64,000 nucleotides of DNA from Chloroflexota bacterium (GTDB taxonomy: Bacteria; Chloroflexota; Dehalococcoidia; Bin125). Below the pieces are notes generated by a model. The model searched no databases. It was not told where the DNA came from and saw only the letters and a program-made list of their open reading frames with translations. The position numbers were made by a program, and so were the translations under genes. Positions 5,790 through 41,663 of the stretch are shown one piece after another. The stretch is from assembly GCA_028874365.1 (NCBI GenBank), contig JAPPJZ010000018.1:1-64000 (forward strand), read 5' to 3'. The stretch's first letter is position 1. Each line of letters opens with the position of its first letter.

Positions 5790-7811
5790 TCAGGATTCGT
5801 CGGCGTCCGAATCGGAATCCGGCAGCTGCCGATGAGCGGCTGGATAGCCGGAATCGTCGCGCAGGCGGATGCCGCAGTCGGCGAGGTGCTGGCCCGACCA
5901 AGCGAAGTCGAGCCAGCGGGCGTCTGGGCTGAACCAGGGCTGGACGATTACCCGCTGCAGGGGGACGGCCAGGTCGTGAATCCAGCTGGTTGCTGAGCCC
6001 GAAAGCCAGCGCCGCTGTAGGTCGAGCACTGCATCCCTCATCTCTTCTGGGTCGAAGAGCGTTCGCAGATCGTCCAGCGACCGATCGAGGACGGGATCTG
6101 CGAACGCGCCCCAGGCTGCGGGACCGTGGGTGTGCTCGGTGCGGAGCCAGTCTCGAACGGGCAGGGCGGACTGCGGCGTCCCTCCCCAGCGCAGAAGGGC
6201 GAAGCGCTCGCCGTCCAACAACCGCTGCATCGCATGCGCCCGTTCGGCTTGTTCGAGCTCGATCGCGAGGCCGCTCGTCTGCCGGACCATGCCCGAGACC
6301 AGCTCGCCCAGTCCGGGCAGGGCGCGGGCGACCTCATCCAGGACGACGAGCTTGAGCGGGGCGACCCGCTCCCGGCCGCCGGCCGCCCCAACCAGGTCGG
6401 CGACCGCAGCCCGGGTCGCCGCGTCCGGCGCGCGGTAGCCGAGGTAGCCGAGCAGTTCATCGTCCGGCAGCGCCAACTCGGTAAACTGCGGCGCGACCGG
6501 CCCGGACGGCGTGAGCCGGACCGGCGCGCCCACGCTGCGGACCAGCTCGGGCCGGTTCACGGACCAGTTGATCGCCATTGCAATGCGCGGATCGCTGAGC
6601 GCGCCGGCGGGGTCGGGATCGCGCGGCGTGACCAGCTGCAGCGGGCGGCCGCCGATCACTTCGTAGACCTGGTGCTCGGGAAACTGCGCGGCCAGGGCAT
6701 CGATCTGGGCGTCGTCGAGCGGCGAACCGGCCAGGTCGACGTCGCCGTCGGCGAACCTCCGCATCAAATCGTCCGCGGACCCGCTGAACATCCGGATCGC
6801 GTCGAGCCGCGCCAGGCGATGCGCTGACCAGAAGTCGGGCGGCGGTTCGCTCGCCCACCAGCGATCGGAGCGGACCAGAGTGGTCTGCTCCGGCCCGTGC
6901 CCGTGCAGCCGGTAGGGTCCCGATCCATCGGTCCAGGGCTCGCCCGCCGATCCCTCAGGCCAGCGGACGCCGGCCTGCTCGATCGCTTCGGCGCTGGCGA
7001 TCCAGGAGTAGGGTCCGAAGAGCATGTCGAGCGCTGGATGTACCTCGCCCCTGTCGATCGTGAGCACGAACGGATCCTGGTACTCGGTGACCTGGTCGAA
7101 TGCTTGGAAGCGTATGGCGGCCCAGTCGCCGGGCCGACGGGGATCCTCGCCCGTGGCATCCGCGAACCCGCCGGCCGACGATAACCGCTCGATGCTCAGC
7201 CGCACATCCTCGCTCGTGGCCGGTCGTCCCTCGCCCTCCGCATCGATCTGGAAGCGGGCGCGCGGGTCCAAGTTGAACACCCAGGTCTCGAGATCGAGAA
7301 TCTCGGGCGACTCGCAGAGATCCGCCTCCCAGAAGAGCGAAGTGGATCGCTTCCAGCGGCCGATCCGGTGGTAGGTCAACGAGTGCACCCGCTGAGCGAA
7401 GGCCGAGCGGGCGCGGTGCGGGTCCCAGCTGTCGACTGCGCCGAGGCCCGCGAACTGGTGCGTGACCCGGGTGTCGGGACCGGGCATGCCGGTCTGTGAG
7501 CTCTGGTCCGGACGCGGCATCGGTGCAGGTGCTGGCTCGGCGGGCGTCGGCGGAGGCCGCGAGACCTCTGAGCGACCCTGAGCGGACGGCTGCTTCGCCG
7601 GTTGATCACCTGGGCCCGCTTCATCCACTGACCGGGTCACCGGTCGAGCGGGATCCGGCTGGGCGGAGTCGGTGGCTAGAGCCTGGTTCGCTGGCTGCGG
7701 CTCCGCTTCGTCGCCGCAGCCGACCAGCGCCAGGGCGGCGATGCCGACCCCCGCCCGCATGCTCGCTGCGAGCAGTCGGCGGCGGGTGAGCTGTCGCCGG
7801 TGGATACGCAT
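5790..7811 (-). CDS. ABC transporter substrate-binding lipoprotein, family 5 (peptide/nickel type)
   Basis: 673 residues. The start is placed at the ATG that opens an export signal: a twin-arginine stretch (RRRLLA), a hydrophobic core and the lipobox ALVGC with the lipidated cysteine at residue 32. A Pro/Gln-rich linker follows, then the SBP_bac_5 fold; its entry motif resembles WDPHRARSAFAQRVHSLTYH, and a ligand-binding core and mixed alpha/beta lobes run to the C-terminus. Such proteins capture oligopeptides or other solutes outside the membrane for an ABC importer. No permease or ATPase gene is adjacent, so the partner must be elsewhere. No strong ribosome-binding site is visible. The ligand is unknown. 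Confidence 0.75.
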   Translation of the reverse strand: MRIHRRQLTRRRLLAASMRAGVGIAALALVGCGDEAEPQPANQALATDSAQPDPARPVTRSVDEAGPGDQPAKQPSAQGRSEVSRPPPTPAEPAPAPMPRPDQSSQTGMPGPDTRVTHQFAGLGAVDSWDPHRARSAFAQRVHSLTYHRIGRWKRSTSLFWEADLCESPEILDLETWVFNLDPRARFQIDAEGEGRPATSEDVRLSIERLSSAGGFADATGEDPRRPGDWAAIRFQAFDQVTEYQDPFVLTIDRGEVHPALDMLFGPYSWIASAEAIEQAGVRWPEGSAGEPWTDGSGPYRLHGHGPEQTTLVRSDRWWASEPPPDFWSAHRLARLDAIRMFSGSADDLMRRFADGDVDLAGSPLDDAQIDALAAQFPEHQVYEVIGGRPLQLVTPRDPDPAGALSDPRIAMAINWSVNRPELVRSVGAPVRLTPSGPVAPQFTELALPDDELLGYLGYRAPDAATRAAVADLVGAAGGRERVAPLKLVVLDEVARALPGLGELVSGMVRQTSGLAIELEQAERAHAMQRLLDGERFALLRWGGTPQSALPVRDWLRTEHTHGPAAWGAFADPVLDRSLDDLRTLFDPEEMRDAVLDLQRRWLSGSATSWIHDLAVPLQRVIVQPWFSPDARWLDFAWSGQHLADCGIRLRDDSGYPAAHRQLPDSDSDADES

Positions 7812-8022
7812 GCGGTTAGCATATGCAGCTGCGCCAGGGACGGCGCGAGGGAGCGGCCGCACCACAGGGCATGGGCGATGTCACCACCCCATGAGGGCGC
7901 AGACCCAGTCTCACGCTCCCCTCTGCCGGGAACCATTGTGTCGCTGAGATCGTCTCAGTTCTGAGCGGGGCGGCGGCCGGTCGCCAACCTGCCGCCCCAC
8001 AGCTGCAGCGCAGGAGGACCAG

Positions 8023-9905
8023 ATGCACGAGCAAGAGACCCGAGCCGGAACCGGAAGGTGGACGCGCATCCTGGTGCTGCCGTTGATCATCCTGGCAGTT
8101 GCCACAGCGGCGCTGTCCGTCGCCTGCGGAGATGACGCGCAACCGGCGCAGAGCGAGCAGCCGGCGGGGGTGGAGCGCCAGGCGGAGCAAGCCGAGCGGC
8201 CTGCCGTCGCCGATGCCCAACAGGAGGTCGCTCCGGGGCAACCGAAGGCGATGGATCAGGAAGAAGTTCTCTCCCAGGAGGAAGCCGAGCAGCAACAGCA
8301 GGAGGCCATTGAGCAGCAGGCGGCAGAACAGCAAGCCGTTGCCGAGTATGAGGAGGAAGAACAGGCCGCCCAAGAAGCGATGGAGCAAGCGCAGGAACAA
8401 GCGTCCTCCGACAGCTCCCGTTCCCGGCAGCGACAGGAGCGCTCAAGCGAGGAACGTCGCACGCCCCGGCGCTCCTTGCCCGGAGCGACCAACTTCGAGG
8501 ATTACCCAACCATCGGCTGGCGCGAAACCGTCGACGATGATACTTCCACGTTCTCCCTCGACGTCGACCGCACCTCTTACTTCCTCGCCCTGAACTGGGT
8601 CGAAGCCGGATACGCGATTGAGCCTGCTTCGGTGCGGGCCGAGGAGTGGATCAACGCCTTCAGCTACAACTACGACCTGCCTGAGGTCGATGACAGCTTC
8701 GCCGTCACCACCGATATCCTCGAACACCCCCTGCACGATGATCTGCATCTCGTCCGCATCGCCACCCAGGCGCCCGAGTTCGTCGACAACACGCCGCTCA
8801 ACGTGACGCTGGTGCTCACGCATCCGGCTCGATGCAGGAAGGCAATCGTGTCGAGATCGCCCGCGCGGCGGCAGAATCGATCCGCCGCGGACTCAGCTCG
8901 GACGACCGTATTGCCGTCGTGCTCTTCTCCGACAACATCGTCGCCAGCGAGTCTCATCAGCGTCCTGACGATCGCGACATCAGGAGAATCATCGACCGGC
9001 TCGGACCAACCGGCTCAACCAATGTCCAGGCCGGCCTCAACCGTGGCGTCCGATTTGCAGATGAGATCCGTCGCGAACGACCCAACGCCCACAACTACGT
9101 GATCCTCATGTCCGACGGCGTCGCCAACGTCGACGCTACCGACCCGTTCGCCATCCTGCGGACGGCCGAGGACCGCGATGACAGCAACCCGCTCCGTCTG
9201 ATCACGGTCGGCGTCGGCATCGCCAACTACAACGACGTTCTGCTTGAGCAGCTCGCCCAGCACGGCAACGGCTGGTACCGCTACTTGCAAGATGTCGCCC
9301 AGGCTCAATCCACCTTCAGCCGCGAGAACTGGCTGGCGCTCTCGATTCCCTTCGCCGACCAGGCTCGCGCCCAGGTCCGCTGGAACAACGAGTCGATCGT
9401 CGCCTGGCGACTCGTCGGCTACGAGAACCGCGTCACTGCCGACCGTAACTTCGAGCAGGATCGCAAGGAGTTCGCAGAAATCCCGATGGGATCCGCCACC
9501 ACCATGTTCTTCGAGGTTGAGTTGAGCGACACGGCAATCCGCGATGGCGTCGTTGACCTCGGCGAGGTCGAACTGCGCTGGCTTACTCCGATGTCCGGGG
9601 AATCCAATCGCCAGCAGATTCAGATGGTTTCCGGCATTTCGCGCTTCGGCGACGACGCCATGCTGGACCTCGGCTCAGTCGTTGCGCTCGCCGCCGACCG
9701 TTACAGCTGGTTCGGACAGGCCGGCCTCAGCGAGGACACCATGCTGCTGGCCGCCGAGCACCTGGACGAGCTCTCCTGGTGGTTCGCCCACCTGCCCGCT
9801 CGCATCCTCAACAGCCAGGCCGGAGAGGACTTCGCCCGGCTGCTCGTCGCCATGGGCGACGTCGCCGAAGAGTTCGAGGCGGAGGACCCGGGCTATTCCC
9901 GCTAA
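8023..9905 (+). pseudogene. YfbK-like von Willebrand factor A lipoprotein, frameshifted at MIDAS motif
   Basis: The ATG follows GGAGG by five bases. The product starts with a lipoprotein signal (TAALSVAC, lipobox), then a Gln/Glu-rich spacer of ~80 residues. After that come the conserved block NFEDYP...STFSLDVDRTSYF and the vWA domain. Translation in the first frame reads LNVTLVL and then changes sense; the second frame resumes as ASGSMQEGN. Adding one G between 8817 and 8818 restores DASGSM, the DxSxS metal-ion adhesion motif. The remaining MIDAS elements (GSTNVQ, LMSDG) and the DUF3520-like C-terminus are intact. Restored length is about 627 residues. It is either a one-base assembly error or a very recent inactivation. 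The normal role in the family is unknown envelope binding. Confidence 0.85.
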
Positions 9906-34898: not shown

Positions 34899-34920
34899 CC
34901 GGAAGGAAGGGGATTGCGTG

Positions 34921-35394
34921 ATGCGGGTTGAGGAGCGGGTGGAGTTGTTGGATCGGTTTCGGGCGGGGCCGGGGGCTTTGCGGGCTTCGGTGGCTGGGGT
35001 TTCGATGGCTCAGCTTGATGGGGCTCCGCCGGAGCCGGGGTGGACGGCTCGGGAGAACTTGCATCACGTGTCGGATGTTGCGGTGATGGGGGCGTTGCGC
35101 TTGCGGATGATGCTGCTCGATATCGAGGTGGAGATGTGGCCGATTGACGGGGACGCGATGCAGAAACGGTTGCGCAACGACAAGCGTCCGATAACTCCGG
35201 CGTTGCAGACGGTGGAGGCGCTGGTTGAGTCGGCGTCGTCGATCCTGGGAGCGTTGCGCGAGGACGAGTGGACGCAGCCGCGTCCGGTGCCGGTGGCGCG
35301 TGCGCGCAGCGTCGAGGAATGGCTTGAGGCGAGCGTGCGGCATGTTGAGGAGCACATCGAGCAGATTCGTTACGCGCTGACCGGGACCTGCTAA
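34921..35394 (+). CDS. DinB-family protein 1
   Basis: 157 residues from the ATG behind AAGGGG; a GTG one codon upstream is equally possible. It is a four-helix bundle of the DinB/YfiT type. The candidate metal ligands are histidines in ENLHHVSDV (helix 2) and in HVEEHIEQIRYALTG (helix 4). Members include metal-dependent thiol transferases (mycothiol/bacillithiol S-transferases), but many have no known activity. It is first of three adjacent DinB genes on one strand, separated by 20-27 bases. Confidence 0.75.
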   Translation: MRVEERVELLDRFRAGPGALRASVAGVSMAQLDGAPPEPGWTARENLHHVSDVAVMGALRLRMMLLDIEVEMWPIDGDAMQKRLRNDKRPITPALQTVEALVESASSILGALREDEWTQPRPVPVARARSVEEWLEASVRHVEEHIEQIRYALTGTC

Positions 35395-35414
35395 GGCACG
35401 TAAGGATTTAGCGA

Positions 35415-35882
35415 ATGAGCGAACGTCCGGCGCTGTTGGCGGAGTACCTCGAATCGACGTATGAGATCGAGGTCGTGCTGGAGGAGTTGTCGGAGTCGGA
35501 GCTGGAGGCGCGTGAGCGTCCCGAGGAGTGGTCGGTGCGGCAGATTGTGCATCACCTGGCGGATGTGGAAGTCGGCGATGCGATGCGTCTGCGGCAGATG
35601 CTGGCTCACGAGTCGCCGCTGATCGTTGCGTACGACGAGGGGCTGTTCGCTGCGGGTCTGCATTACGAGCGGGCGATTGAGACGTCGGTGGCGACGTTCT
35701 TCGCGTTGCGGGCGTCGAGCGGGGCGATACTCGAACAGATTGGGGAGCGGGACTGGTCGCGGGCGGGTCGGCACGAGGAGCACGACTTGTACACGGTTGA
35801 GATACTGGTGGGCAGGAGCATCGAGCATGACCGGCTGCACGTCGCGCAGATCAAGGGCGCGCTCCAGCGCGCGCTGGGGTGA
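35415..35882 (+). CDS. DinB-family protein 2
   Basis: 155 residues. The bundle shows the typical EWSVRQIVHHLADVEVGDAMR and a C-terminal SIEHDRLHVAQIKGALQ, which together give the three histidines of the metal site. It starts 21 bases after the first DinB stop. The sequence differs widely from its two neighbours, so this is not a recent tandem duplication. Role as above: a possible low-molecular-weight thiol or stress-linked transferase; unproven. Confidence 0.8.
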   Translation: MSERPALLAEYLESTYEIEVVLEELSESELEARERPEEWSVRQIVHHLADVEVGDAMRLRQMLAHESPLIVAYDEGLFAAGLHYERAIETSVATFFALRASSGAILEQIGERDWSRAGRHEEHDLYTVEILVGRSIEHDRLHVAQIKGALQRALG

Positions 35883-35909
35883 CCGCAGCTTGCTGAGAGG
35901 ACCAAAGCG

Positions 35910-36497
35910 ATGACGACGCCGGCGAGCTACACGAACGACGATGTCGAGGCGCTGCTGTCGAAGATGGCGCAGGAGCGCGGCAAGCTGATTCAGGCGGCGG
36001 AGGGTCTGCGGGGCGACGACGCGGACCGTGTGCCGGTCGACGCGGTCGGTGAGGAGCAATGGACGGCGAAGGAGCAGCTGGCGCACCTCTGGGAGATGGA
36101 GCGCAGCTACATCGCCTGGTGCCGGGCGGGTCAGGCCGAGAGCGGCGTCGACGCCTCGGAGATCCGCGGCGAGCCGGTCGACATCCCGATCGAGCGCGCA
36201 CCCCAGCACACGGTCCGCGAACTGCTTGATGCGCTGATCGACGAGCGAGCGAGGACCAACGACTACATCCGTTCGCTGACGCTGGGCGAGTTCGCGCATA
36301 CGGCGTCGACGCCCGGGTTCGGGGAGCTGACCCTGATGCAGTGGCTGCGTTCGTTCTACCGGCACGACCGCATGCACACGGCGCAGATCGAGGGCCGGCA
36401 GTCGGACTATCAGCCGCGCTACCAGGGCGGTCGGGAAGCGAACCAGCGTCAGATGCGGATTGACCAGGTGGCGGAGCGGCAGGGTCGGGGCGGGTAG
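35910..36497 (+). CDS. DinB-family protein 3
   Basis: 195 residues with AGGACC upstream. QWTAKEQLAHLWEMERSYI supplies the first histidine and FYRHDRMHTAQIEGRQSDY the C-terminal ones. Compared with the other two it has longer loops around RGEPVDIPIERAPQHTV and a basic glutamine-rich tail. It ends the DinB trio; a small membrane protein gene follows nine bases later, so the four genes are probably one transcript. Confidence 0.8.
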   Translation: MTTPASYTNDDVEALLSKMAQERGKLIQAAEGLRGDDADRVPVDAVGEEQWTAKEQLAHLWEMERSYIAWCRAGQAESGVDASEIRGEPVDIPIERAPQHTVRELLDALIDERARTNDYIRSLTLGEFAHTASTPGFGELTLMQWLRSFYRHDRMHTAQIEGRQSDYQPRYQGGREANQRQMRIDQVAERQGRGG

Positions 36498-37058: not shown

Positions 37059-37478
37059 CTAGAGGCAGCCGGCGTTGGTGAGGGTCTGTCGGGTGTCGAG
37101 GCGAATGCGTTCGATGGCGCGGCGGAGTTGGGTGGCGATTTGGATGGCATTGAGGCCGAAGGCGAGGGGGTTGGCGAGTTCCTCGGGGGGATGTTTTCGG
37201 GCTTCCTCTACGACGAACTCGAGAGTCTTGAGGCTGACGCGGTGAAAGGTGGCGAGCTGCTCGGGTGGGCTAATGCTGCGGAGGCGCTCGATTGAGGGCT
37301 CGCCGAGCTGGACGAGGTCGCCCCAGGTGGTGTTTTCGGGTTCGATGAGCTCTGCGGCGGAGGCGATGCCTGCGGCGCAGAAGGCGGCGTATTCGTCGAT
37401 GGTGAGTCGGTCATCGGGGCCGCAGGCGGTGGCGAGGAGTGGGAGCAGGGCCAGGAGCGCCAGGCTGCGTCGTCGCAT
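37059..37478 (-). CDS. Small lipoprotein (139 aa)
   Basis: A basic start MRRR, a hydrophobic core and the lipobox LLATAC (cysteine 19) mark a lipoprotein. The mature part is helical, with LTIDEYAAFCAAGIASAAELIE and later SISPPEQLATFHRVSLKTLEF; the phrase PPEQLATFH is common in small extracytoplasmic helical proteins of GC-rich bacteria. Function unknown. It is divergent from the hydroxyacid dehydrogenase gene. Confidence 0.7.
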   Translation of the reverse strand: MRRRSLALLALLPLLATACGPDDRLTIDEYAAFCAAGIASAAELIEPENTTWGDLVQLGEPSIERLRSISPPEQLATFHRVSLKTLEFVVEEARKHPPEELANPLAFGLNAIQIATQLRRAIERIRLDTRQTLTNAGCL

Positions 37479-37557: not shown

Positions 37558-38547
37558 ATGACCGCGCCGTATCGGGTGTTCGTGACTCGCGTGCTACCGG
37601 GCAATGGATTTGCCGAGCTGCTTGAGGATCCGGCGTTTGATCTCGACGTCTGGCCGGTCGACTTCCCTCCGACGCGGGACGAGTTGCTGGAGCATGTGGT
37701 CGGCGTGGACGCGCTGGTTTGCCTGATCACGGACACGATCGACAGCGCAGTGCTCAACGCGGCCGGCGAGCAGTTGAAGGTCGTGTCGCAGATGGCGGTC
37801 GGGGTCGACAACGTGGATGTGGCGGCCTGCTCGGCGCGCGGGATTCCGGTGGGGAATACGCCGGGCGTGTTGACGGAGACGACGGCGGACATGGCGTGGG
37901 CGCTGATCCTGTCGTCGGCGCGGCGCGTGGTGGAGGCGGCGGAGTACGTGAAGGACGGGGAGTGGAAGACCTGGACGCCGACGCAGATGGCCGGCGTTGA
38001 TGTGTTCGGGTCGACGCTGGGGGTTGTCGGGTTCGGCGCGATTGGCCAGGCGATTGCTCGGCGGGCTCAGGGCTTCGGGATGCGGGTGCTGTGCTGGAAT
38101 CGGACGCCGCGACCGGAGGAGGCGGCGGCCGTGGGGGCGGAGCAGTGCGGGTTTGACGATGTGCTGTCGCAATCGGACTTCGTTTGCGTCAGCATTGCCC
38201 TGACCGACGACACGCGGCAGCTGATCGACGCTCGGGCATTCGAGCTGATGAAGCCGGGAGCGATCCTGGTCAATACGGCGCGAGGGCCGATCGTTGATGA
38301 AGCGGCGCTGGTCAGCGCGCTGGAGGCGGGGCAGATTGGCGGGGCGGGGCTGGACGTGACGGCGATCGAACCGCTGGCGATGGATTCGCCGCTGCTGACG
38401 ATGCGGAACGTGGTGGTGCTGCCGCATATCGGCTCGGCCTCATTGGCGACGCGGGGCAAGATGGCGGACATCGCGGTCGCCAACCTGCGAGCGGGGCTGG
38501 CGGGCGAGCCGCTGCCGCACTCGGTGTCGTTGGCGGTGGACGGCTGA
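37558..38547 (+). CDS. D-isomer-specific 2-hydroxyacid dehydrogenase (glyoxylate/hydroxypyruvate reductase type)
   Basis: 329 residues. The NAD(P) fold shows VVGFGAIGQAIARRAQGFG, the substrate loop MAVGVDNVDVAA, and the catalytic Arg/Glu/His set appears in NTARGPIVDEAAL, DVTAIEPLAMD and VVLPHIGSAS. It reduces a 2-ketoacid such as glyoxylate or hydroxypyruvate to the D-2-hydroxyacid. The stop overlaps the start of the phosphoribosyltransferase gene (TGATG), so the two are translationally coupled. Confidence 0.9.
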   Translation: MTAPYRVFVTRVLPGNGFAELLEDPAFDLDVWPVDFPPTRDELLEHVVGVDALVCLITDTIDSAVLNAAGEQLKVVSQMAVGVDNVDVAACSARGIPVGNTPGVLTETTADMAWALILSSARRVVEAAEYVKDGEWKTWTPTQMAGVDVFGSTLGVVGFGAIGQAIARRAQGFGMRVLCWNRTPRPEEAAAVGAEQCGFDDVLSQSDFVCVSIALTDDTRQLIDARAFELMKPGAILVNTARGPIVDEAALVSALEAGQIGGAGLDVTAIEPLAMDSPLLTMRNVVVLPHIGSASLATRGKMADIAVANLRAGLAGEPLPHSVSLAVDG

Positions 38548-39224
38548 TGTCGGAACCCAGCGGTCCGGCCTGGACGCCGCAGGGCGAGGAACCGTCCAAC
38601 TTCTGGTTGGCGCGGGCATTGTGGGACTCGGGCGGGATCATGTTCGGCGATTTCGACCTGGGCGCGACGCTGGGGTCGCCGGTCTACATCAATGTGCGGC
38701 GGCTGATCGCGCACCCGTGGGCGCTGCGGCGGATCGGCGACCTGCTGAGCGACGAGACGCGGATGCTGGGCGGGATGCTGCGACCGACGATCGCACCATT
38801 CGAGTTGATCGCGGGCGTGCCGATGGGCGGATTGCACGCGGCGACGGCGTTCTCGCTTTCGAGCAACGTACCGATGATCTACGTGCACCCGCCGAGTCAG
38901 AGTCACGTGGCGGAAGAGATCGAGGGCGCGTACTATCCCGGCCAGACCGTGATCCTTGTGGACGACCTGATGACTCGGGGCGGATCGCTGGCGGAGACGG
39001 CGGACCTGCTGCGTTCGGCGGGGTTGATGGTGCATGATGCGTTCGTGCTGATTGATCGCGGTGCGGGCGGCGTGGAGCGGATGCGTCGCGAAGGAGTGAA
39101 GGTGCACTCGTTGCTGACGCTGGAGGGGTTGTTGAACTACCTGCTGGCGCGGGAGCTGATCACGGAGGCGGTCTACGCGAAGTGCCTGACGTGGCTCGAG
39201 GGCGTGCGGGGAGACGAGCGGTGA
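38547..39224 (+). CDS. Orotate phosphoribosyltransferase-like protein
   Basis: 225 residues. The PRPP-binding motif is VILVDDLMTRGGSLAETADLL, and APFELIAGVPMGGLHAATA forms the pyrophosphate loop. YINVRRLIAHPWALR is like the N-terminal segment of PyrE. The enzyme should transfer ribose-5-phosphate from PRPP to a base, most likely orotate in pyrimidine synthesis, but no other pyr gene is nearby and the family includes other bases. It lies in an overlapping gene string with the dehydrogenase before and the coiled-coil gene after. Confidence 0.75.
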   Translation: MSEPSGPAWTPQGEEPSNFWLARALWDSGGIMFGDFDLGATLGSPVYINVRRLIAHPWALRRIGDLLSDETRMLGGMLRPTIAPFELIAGVPMGGLHAATAFSLSSNVPMIYVHPPSQSHVAEEIEGAYYPGQTVILVDDLMTRGGSLAETADLLRSAGLMVHDAFVLIDRGAGGVERMRREGVKVHSLLTLEGLLNYLLARELITEAVYAKCLTWLEGVRGDER

Positions 39225-40486
39225 GGCGCAGGAATGGACAGCAGCAGCCGTTCGCCTGGCTGAAACACGTTCCATTGGGGATTTCGGTACTGATCTCGAC
39301 TACATTTGCTCTCTTGATTGCGCGGCGCGAGCGCAAGCGACAGCGCATTCTGCTGCGAGAGCGCCAGGATGTGGAAGCGGCATTTGAGCAAGGCATCGAG
39401 AGGCTGAACCGACACGAGGAGGAGTTGGAACAGCAGATCAGAGCGCTACGCCGCCAAGAGGCAGACCTTGAGACGCAGGTGCACAAGCTCGGTCAGCGCG
39501 AGGCGGAATTGGAGTCTCAGGTTAAGGGGCTTTCGGAGCGCGAGGCCGGCCTGCGTCGGCAAGAGGACGAGTTGGAGACGCAGGTTCTGCGTCTGAGCGA
39601 GCAAGAAGAGATGCTCGAAGAGCAGGTCAAACAGATACAGCAACGTGAAACCAATCTGACGCAGAACGTGGATTTCCTGCTGCAACGTGCAGCGGCCGCG
39701 GGAGATGACGATACGGAACGAACGAAAACTATCGAGCAGTTGCAACGGATGACAGAGGAACAGGAACAGCGCGAAGCAAAGCTCAGGGACGAGCACAAGG
39801 AACTGCAGAGGCAGCTTACGTTGCGGGGACAGGATCTCGACGCGCTCAAGCGAGAGCGGGTCAAACTTAGCAATGACCTCAAGGGGGAGAAGCAACGAAG
39901 TCATTCCCTACGCGATCGAATCAGGATGTTGGAGGCTGCCCACAACGCAGAATCTTCCGAGAACCCGGTCGCCGCGCACTGGTCCGAGCGAGAACCGGCG
40001 GATAACTTCGAAGACTTGATCACCCAAGCGCGGTTCATGTTCGGTGGACTTCAGATTGCGGATTCCGCGCTACAACGCGCCTCTGATCTCGACAGCGCAC
40101 TCGAAAAGGAGCGCTGGCTTCGTGATACGTGGAGTGCATTGGGCGCCTTGCACGAATACGCGGCCTCCGATCACGAGTTCGCTGGCGATTTCTTCCTTTG
40201 GAACACCAACAGTGGGAGCGCGTATGCCTGGTTCCCTGATCGCGTGGCTGCACAAGAGAGTGCCGAAACGATGAGCAGATATGGCGTCAAGCGCGCATTC
40301 GAAGTTGACGAGCGCGTCGACCCATCTGGGCAGATCGAGATGCAGGCGCACCTGAAGATCCAGAAAGGCGGCGGCCAGAACATTCCGCGGATGTTCTTCT
40401 ACGACGACACGGCAGGAAGCACCGGCAAGGTGCATATCGGGTTCATAGGCCCGCATCGGCTCGTGCCGTCCGCGAATCGTAGCTAA
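39221..40486 (+). CDS. Membrane-anchored long coiled-coil protein with C-terminal domain
   Basis: 421 residues; the GTG overlaps the stop of the phosphoribosyltransferase gene (GTGA). One transmembrane helix (about 15-35, VPLGISVLISTTFALLIA) is followed by a coiled coil (about 45-250) built of 14-residue units such as REAELESQVKGLSE. The last ~130 residues are a separate domain (WSALGALHEYAA...EMQAHLKIQKGG...MFFYDDTAGSTGKVHIGFIG). The neighbouring gene carries a recognisable relative of this domain, with WRALGAMQEYAEA and YWVDDVGGETGRMHVVGLG. The shape suggests a membrane-tethered rod carrying a ligand- or nucleic-acid-binding head. Function unknown. Confidence 0.7.
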   Translation: MRRRNGQQQPFAWLKHVPLGISVLISTTFALLIARRERKRQRILLRERQDVEAAFEQGIERLNRHEEELEQQIRALRRQEADLETQVHKLGQREAELESQVKGLSEREAGLRRQEDELETQVLRLSEQEEMLEEQVKQIQQRETNLTQNVDFLLQRAAAAGDDDTERTKTIEQLQRMTEEQEQREAKLRDEHKELQRQLTLRGQDLDALKRERVKLSNDLKGEKQRSHSLRDRIRMLEAAHNAESSENPVAAHWSEREPADNFEDLITQARFMFGGLQIADSALQRASDLDSALEKERWLRDTWSALGALHEYAASDHEFAGDFFLWNTNSGSAYAWFPDRVAAQESAETMSRYGVKRAFEVDERVDPSGQIEMQAHLKIQKGGGQNIPRMFFYDDTAGSTGKVHIGFIGPHRLVPSANRS

Positions 40487-40496
40487 GATTTCGCAG

Positions 40497-41243
40497 ATGC
40501 GAGGGTTTCTGCAGACGTTGTTGGCGTTCGTGACCGGCGTGGTGGCTGCGGTGATGTGGCTGGAGCGTCAGACGGGGCCGGAGCGGCCGCGTCCAGCTCC
40601 CGAACCTCCATCCGCGCCGGCGTCGGAGCCGGAGCGGGTGGTCGAGGAGGTGGTGGTGCCTGACCCGGAGCAGGCGGCGCGGATCGAGGCGCTGGAGGCG
40701 GAGTTGGCGGAGCAGCGGACGCTGCGGACGGAGGCGCCGGGCGACTCGCACCCGGGAGTGGACGCGATTCGGGCGGCGCGGATGCGGGCGCTGGAGCTGG
40801 AACGACAGCTCTCGCAGAACAACGTTGACGGCGGACGGCGCTGGTTTGAGATCGAGGCGCCGGCGGTGGAGGGGCTGATCGATGCGGTCGCGGAGCATTT
40901 GCCGCGGGTGGCTCTGCGGGTGCAGGCGGATGGGGTGGATGCGGTCGGGCTGTGGCGGGCGCTGGGGGCGATGCAGGAGTACGCGGAGGCGTCCGGTGGC
41001 GCCTGGTTTGAGTTCGACGGCGACTTCGCAGGTTGGTGTCGGGAGAGCGGGCATCCGCACGCGCTGGATCCGGATCAGGTGGGGGTGGACGAGGGACGGC
41101 CGGAGTTCGGGGTGGAGGTGCGGGTCAATCGGTCGGGTCGGATGGTGGTGCCGAGTTACGTGGAGGTGGGGGCGTTGCGTCTGTACTGGGTTGATGATGT
41201 CGGGGGGGAGACGGGTCGGATGCACGTGGTTGGGTTGGGATGA
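40497..41243 (+). CDS. Shorter membrane-anchored paralogue of the coiled-coil protein
   Basis: 248 residues. An N-terminal helix (FLQTLLAFVTGVVAAVMWL) leads into a proline/glutamate-rich linker, a short coiled coil (EQAARIEALEAELAEQRTL) and then the same C-terminal domain as the preceding protein. That domain has additional elements FEFDGDFAGWC and VEVRVNRSGRMVVPSYV. The start is ten bases after the previous stop. The pair probably arose by old duplication and forms a two-component membrane complex; its role is unknown. Confidence 0.7.
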   Translation: MRGFLQTLLAFVTGVVAAVMWLERQTGPERPRPAPEPPSAPASEPERVVEEVVVPDPEQAARIEALEAELAEQRTLRTEAPGDSHPGVDAIRAARMRALELERQLSQNNVDGGRRWFEIEAPAVEGLIDAVAEHLPRVALRVQADGVDAVGLWRALGAMQEYAEASGGAWFEFDGDFAGWCRESGHPHALDPDQVGVDEGRPEFGVEVRVNRSGRMVVPSYVEVGALRLYWVDDVGGETGRMHVVGLG

Positions 41244-41303: not shown

Positions 41304-41663
41304 CTACGACAACGGGCTCAGCTTGACGACTAGCAGCTCCACCGCAGTCATGTACCGCGTCACCGTCTCCTCGTCGAGCCACTCTTCGTAGTAGTTGGTA
41401 TGCAGTTCACCGGCCAGCCCAAACTGTTCGCGCATCATCTCGTCACCGGTTTCGTCCTCGAGGCGCCCGAGCGCCTGCCAGAGATGCCGGTGACTCTCGT
41501 GGCGCCAGCCGCGCGACTCCGCCGCAGCCTTGACCAACACCGCCACCGCGCCCCAGGCCTTTTCGGAGGCTTGTTTCAGATCGCCGTCGGCCAGCAACGA
41601 TCGGGCGTGGTCCAGGTACTCCGCACTCATATCGCGGTAGTGGATGACCTGCTCTGTTGTCAT
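41304..41663 (-). CDS. PaREP1/HEPN-like helical protein (119 aa)
   Basis: The pattern YRDMSAEYLDHARSLLADGDLKQASEKAWGAVA followed by LVKAAAESRGW...HRHLWQALGRL matches PaREP1-type HEPN-related proteins. HEPN proteins are often RNases or partners of minimal nucleotidyltransferase toxins, but the RxxxxH catalytic motif is not obvious (RGWRHESH could be a degenerate one). No MNT partner gene is adjacent. Function uncertain. Confidence 0.65.
   Translation of the reverse strand: MTTEQVIHYRDMSAEYLDHARSLLADGDLKQASEKAWGAVAVLVKAAAESRGWRHESHRHLWQALGRLEDETGDEMMREQFGLAGELHTNYYEEWLDEETVTRYMTAVELLVVKLSPLS

Follow-up and report, generated by a model that had tools for sequence, protein, structure and literature searches.

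Membrane-anchored proteins with the NsnC/HEC-07 C-terminal domain in Chloroflexota: an intact copy and its degenerate paralogue

Introduction

Menshen, a system directed against phages, has been described as a combination of a DUF262 protein and a predicted OLD nuclease (PMC10952713). HEC-07 carries in its name the HEC, i.e., the Hma-embedded candidates, several of which are antiviral (PMC12988326). Profiles in PADLOC represent both HEC-07 and NsnC, the third Menshen protein.

We analyzed two adjacent genes, A and B, in a 64,000-nucleotide stretch of DNA (the window) from a Dehalococcoidia-type Chloroflexota genome of 3.12 Mb in 82 contigs. A preliminary description of this DNA had called their shared C-terminal domain unknown. 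This holds insofar as the domain, hereafter the head, has no name in Pfam or NCBIfam and the C-termini of A and B belong to no Pfam family; the domain is, however, covered by the PADLOC profiles for NsnC and HEC-07. We propose, with a probability of about 45% for this reading as a whole, that A is a membrane-tethered member of the NsnC/HEC-07 head family and B a degenerate paralogue without coiled coil, with a probable role in genome defence.

Results

A and B are chained behind a phosphoribosyltransferase gene

Open reading frames and their translations define gene A (39221..40486, + strand, GTG start, 421 aa) and gene B (40497..41243, +, 248 aa). The start of A overlaps the TGA of the phosphoribosyltransferase (PRT) gene (38547..39224, +; Pfam PF00156, Pribosyltran, 4.1e-08) by four bases (39221–39224), and the gap between A and B is exactly ten bases, confirming the coordinates of the co-oriented, chained genes that the preliminary description had placed behind PRT. 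The tandem A-B order is likewise found in G006, G007 and G012. PRT and the D-2-hydroxyacid dehydrogenase gene before it (37558..38547, +; PF02826, 8.3e-64) are both conserved upstream neighbours, and a PaREP1/HEPN-related gene downstream of B (41304..41663, −; PF05942, 1.2e-21) occurs in some genomes only. The surroundings of A/B in the window consist of dehydrogenase, PRT, HEPN-like and zinc-ribbon genes, and no restriction gene adjoins the pair there.

Further upstream, a small lipoprotein-like gene (37059–37478, −) precedes the dehydrogenase gene and evolves as fast as B (dN/dS 0.2–0.3). Three consecutive genes of similar size lie at 34918–36497 (+); the first two are related, with about 31% identity via a relative, and all three look DinB-like.

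The head is shared with NsnC and HEC-07 proteins

The C-terminal domains of A and B, described as related from the outset, aligned in BLASTP with 57.4 bits (E 6e-14, 32% over 111 aa), and profile-profile comparison of A-family with B-family heads in hhalign was also significant (99.3%, E 2.7e-20), so this claim stands. The head of A (residues 253–421, 39977..40483, +) was assigned from the PADLOC NsnC profile, the AlphaFold model and a table of aligned residues, and the degenerate head of B (residues 115–248, 40839..41240, +) from the hhalign match and the same table.

Taken alone, the A head matched the PADLOC NsnC profile with E 4e-08, and nine of nine family heads matched it when treated in this way (best 8.1e-10). 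In full-length A, the match was confined to positions 179–312 of the 316 profile positions, i.e., the N-terminal half (1–175) was unmatched; full-length B gave no match. The HEC-07 profile matched neither A nor B, i.e., the N-terminal HEC-07 domain is absent from both. In proteins of the same genus that end in a divergent head this profile reaches the C-terminus. Moreover, actinobacterial relatives of 519–579 aa combine an HEC-07-like N-terminal part (PADLOC HEC-07) with the head studied here. Full HEC-07-type proteins with a divergent head were observed in G007, G012, G018 and G013 (L085:9269-10789, L087:7794-9266, L088:3720-5222, L089:9053-10606).

As an independent check, a head profile from which NsnC was excluded was built from A-type, C-type (see below), actinobacterial and in-genus HEC-07 heads and run on seven stretches around strong NsnA matches. 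At two loci it recovered the NsnC protein (E 5e-09 and 2e-06), and both loci are complete NsnA-NsnB-NsnC operons (PADLOC: NsnA ≤1.9e-141, NsnB ≤2.5e-104, NsnC ≤1.1e-57). The third protein of the other Menshen-like loci among the seven stretches was too divergent for this profile; two of these proteins, aligned with MAFFT, keep the His and Arg of the head. As far as homology alone is concerned, sequence comparison makes it nearly certain that the head of A and B is also the domain at the C-terminus of Menshen NsnC and HEC-07 proteins. The preliminary description knew of no named system, which remains true of the A-B pair and no longer of its domain.

By head profile, the domain is rare in Chloroflexota (6/400 genomes) and commoner in Actinomycetes, the class of a Stackebrandtia genome (22/247). 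A search of phage genomes found no homologue of A.

A polar site is intact in A and mostly lost in B

Structure prediction, which had been recommended for both heads and a complex, was of use for A. AlphaFold gave a confident model of the A head (pLDDT 92.2, pTM 0.89) with helices followed by a strand-rich C-terminal half; the model of full-length B was poor (pLDDT 62) and was left out of use. The A head had no fold match in PDB or BFVD (viral predicted structures) at E ≤0.001, and a PDB search by sequence returned nothing significant. We provisionally regard the predicted structure as a new fold in comparison with PDB and the viral predicted structures; the fold search in these two collections gave no functional clue. 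A RelE/ParE-type toxin fold, suggested by the strand pattern RIHF...VGHVGRH, was rejected after no Pfam toxin family matched up to E 10 and no PDB fold matched. We know of no experiment on this head.

For the residue table, we aligned 29 heads with four NsnC and with four HEC-07 proteins, the latter from the genus and its family, and compared them with 14 B proteins. The family signature reads Ser...His-x-Lys/Arg...Arg...Gly-x-His/Lys and is complete in A (S347, H377, K379, R390, G410, H412). In A numbering, Ser347, His377, Arg390 and Gly410 are invariant in the heads, in HEC-07 of the genus and its family, and in NsnC; position 379 holds Lys or Arg, and position 412 holds His except for Lys in two NsnC. 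All 14 B proteins have Tyr or Phe at 377 and end before 412, and hence both signature His are absent. The signature Ser is missing from 12 of the 14, as is the Lys/Arg from 12 of the 14, with the reservation that the B alignment is gapped and less sure near residues 346–358. The last hairpin of B keeps R/K, DD, G, T and H, i.e., of the signature only the Arg and parts of the hairpin are left. The site is intact in A and mostly lost in B. The head may bind a ligand, as the preliminary description suggested.

Both proteins carry a membrane helix and only A a coiled coil

From N- to C-terminus, A has its membrane helix first, then a true heptad coiled coil and last the head; in B, the membrane helix is joined by a proline-rich linker to the degenerate head. 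The N-terminal membrane helix expected for both proteins was found as one hydrophobic segment each, at residues 16–34 of A (39266..39322, +; Kyte-Doolittle 19-residue maximum 1.86), followed by RRERKRQR, and at residues 4–22 of B (40506..40562, +; maximum 2.04). Of the two coiled coils of different length that had been described, that of A was borne out: residues 45–245 (39353..39955, +) show a 3.5-residue hydrophobic periodicity that none of 2000 shuffles reached, and contain no proline. That of B was not: residues 56–112 have no heptad signal (1436/2000 shuffles scored as high), and proline is abundant in the stretch that precedes the head. Matches of A to SMC-like and similar families in Pfam, NCBIfam and PHROGs were set aside, as they were confined to the coiled coil (residues 40–250).

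The A head probably faces the cytoplasm, because positive charges cluster after the A helix and because the homologues C and HEC-07 have no membrane segment. The topology is ambiguous for B, and also for A of G012, which apparently has two membrane segments.

GC3 is 0.69 in gene A and 0.83–0.87 in B and PRT. Recent acquisition of A was considered as an explanation and is weakened: low GC3 may be a property of the gene rather than a mark of transfer, since A of G006, G007 and G012 also lies below its neighbours.

B is kept after PRT in nearly every genome of the genus, mostly without A

Of the 14 other genomes in the genus, 13 contain B; it is missing from G003, a 470-contig assembly. In most of them it directly follows PRT without A (G001, G005, G008, G009, G010, G011, G013, G014). 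In G000, G007 and G012, PRT and B are separated by an A-type gene; in G006, where the contig is short, such a gene immediately precedes B. G017, from another genus, has an A-type gene after PRT, followed by genes for a DNA methyltransferase and for another head protein; B is absent.

These arrangements bear on the suggestion of the preliminary description that the pair forms a heteromeric rod in the membrane whose head binds a ligand. In favour of such a rod, both proteins are membrane-anchored, adjacent and paralogous; B, however, offers no coiled coil to pair with and only a degenerate head, and the A-type gene of G017 does without B. Because B usually occurs without A, the pair is not an obligate heteromer, and we consider the rod highly improbable.

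A third paralogue, C, occurs in nine genomes (G003, G004, G005, G007, G008, G010, G012, G013, G014) and is missing from the window's genome. C has no membrane helix (maximum hydropathy about 1.0) and a shorter coiled coil, and its head is 37–44% identical to that of A. Where the flanks are long enough, it lies between mfd, identified by its domains, and a gene that was named peptidyl-tRNA hydrolase-like (pth) solely by its start sequence. In the tree, the B proteins form a single clade with a long stem (100/100) and the C proteins another (99/98), whereas the grouping of A is less well supported (77/81). The simplest history would start from an ancestral A next to PRT, from which B arose by duplication, and would include repeated loss of A.

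B has dN/dS values of 0.11–0.24 compared with 0.03–0.07 for PRT; these ratios are rough, dS being above 1 in many cases. Purifying selection acts on B, which nonetheless evolves several times faster than PRT. This constraint, together with the position of B directly after PRT, which it overlaps or nearly abuts in almost all genomes of the genus, and the A-type gene kept after PRT in G017, would suit a housekeeping role. B, and A with it, would then act at the membrane as partners or regulators of the PRT/dehydrogenase operon, and the relationship to NsnC would reflect no more than a reused binding domain. We regard this as rather unlikely, given that the other homologues of the head lack the PRT context, that B evolves so much faster than its neighbour, and that methyltransferase and restriction genes recur beside heads at unrelated sites.

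Methyltransferase genes recur beside the heads

At four of the 13 other B loci (G005, G006, G007, G010), a PF01555 DNA methyltransferase starts within about 140 bp of B. An HNH domain accompanies it in G005, as does a BsaWI domain in G006; in G007 it was assigned by homology to that of G010 and a PF01555 search. With 2–14 PF01555 matches per genome and genomes of about 2.4–3.7 Mb, such proximity is expected by chance in about 1% per genome or less; four of 13 is therefore far above chance, even if the events may not be independent, G006 and G007 being close relatives. Other heads are found in similar company: that of L060 adjoins a PLD-helicase and a type ISP methyltransferase, that of L158 a type I methyltransferase. 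The genes at the C locus vary and include restriction genes of GmrSD-like (L053, L096) and Mrr-like (L091) kind. Actinobacterial plasmid-borne head proteins are solitary among replication genes and genes of unknown function.

Two further clusters were noted. At the C locus of L051 and L056, an HATPase gene with a small partner lies downstream of mfd. The pair of head genes in G017 is flanked by a cluster (L095, G017:C5:232001-252000, 6421-8569) in which a ThiF (E1-like) gene is joined by two small genes, reminiscent of a ubiquitin-like conjugation operon.

The interval after B might also be a tolerated insertion site for restriction-modification cassettes, to which A and B would be functionally unrelated. 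The methyltransferases near B are of different types, most of them in convergent orientation to B, and many genomes have none beside B, as expected for such hitchhiking. We nevertheless judge it unlikely, since heads elsewhere (L060, L158, G017) show the same association and since the head belongs to families with defence profiles. Family kinship and gene neighbourhoods together point by analogy to a defence function of the head proteins, which we infer for A and B as well. B itself belongs nearly to the core genome and keeps a fixed site, which sets it apart from typical defence genes with their patchy occurrence.

A Menshen locus comprises NsnA (DUF262), NsnB (an ATPase with predicted OLD nuclease) and NsnC. 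Neither NsnA nor NsnB lies next to A/B, and the sole match to the NsnA profile in the window's genome is weak and on another contig.

Discussion

We propose that in A a membrane helix and a long coiled coil have replaced the N-terminal domain of HEC-07. The coiled coil would most likely oligomerise A on the inner face of the membrane, with the heads directed to the cytoplasm. There, the Ser/His/Lys/Arg/His site may bind or cleave a ligand during infection, presumably of nucleic-acid or nucleotide type. B, devoid of the site, could serve as partner or regulator, or in another binding role; any contact between A and B is conjectural. A more ambitious version would see a membrane-tethered branch of the NsnC/HEC-07 defence domain in which intact A is regulated by site-dead B, the two proteins forming a surveillance module at the membrane with a new fold; we consider this quite unlikely.

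The head joins three groups that are not obviously connected, i.e., Menshen NsnC, the HEC-07 candidates, and proteins from Chloroflexota and Actinobacteria that are either membrane-anchored or solo. Its confident model without a solved counterpart and its few near-invariant polar residues make the activity of NsnC-type heads testable by point mutation. Moreover, the membrane-anchored layout is a new architecture, as is the natural site-dead copy B, which provides a built-in control.

Among the known relatives, paralogue C of the same genus has a similar head, has no membrane helix and occupies another locus, between pth and mfd. Menshen NsnC has the same C-terminal domain as A, with the same signature, and the two were detected in both search directions. 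In contrast, A and B are without the N-terminal part of NsnC and without NsnA and NsnB as neighbours, and each has a membrane helix instead. With HEC-07, A shares a coiled-coil stretch followed by the same kind of head. The N-terminal HEC-07 domain of about 300 aa, however, gives way to a membrane helix in A and B, and the coiled coil of A is far longer.
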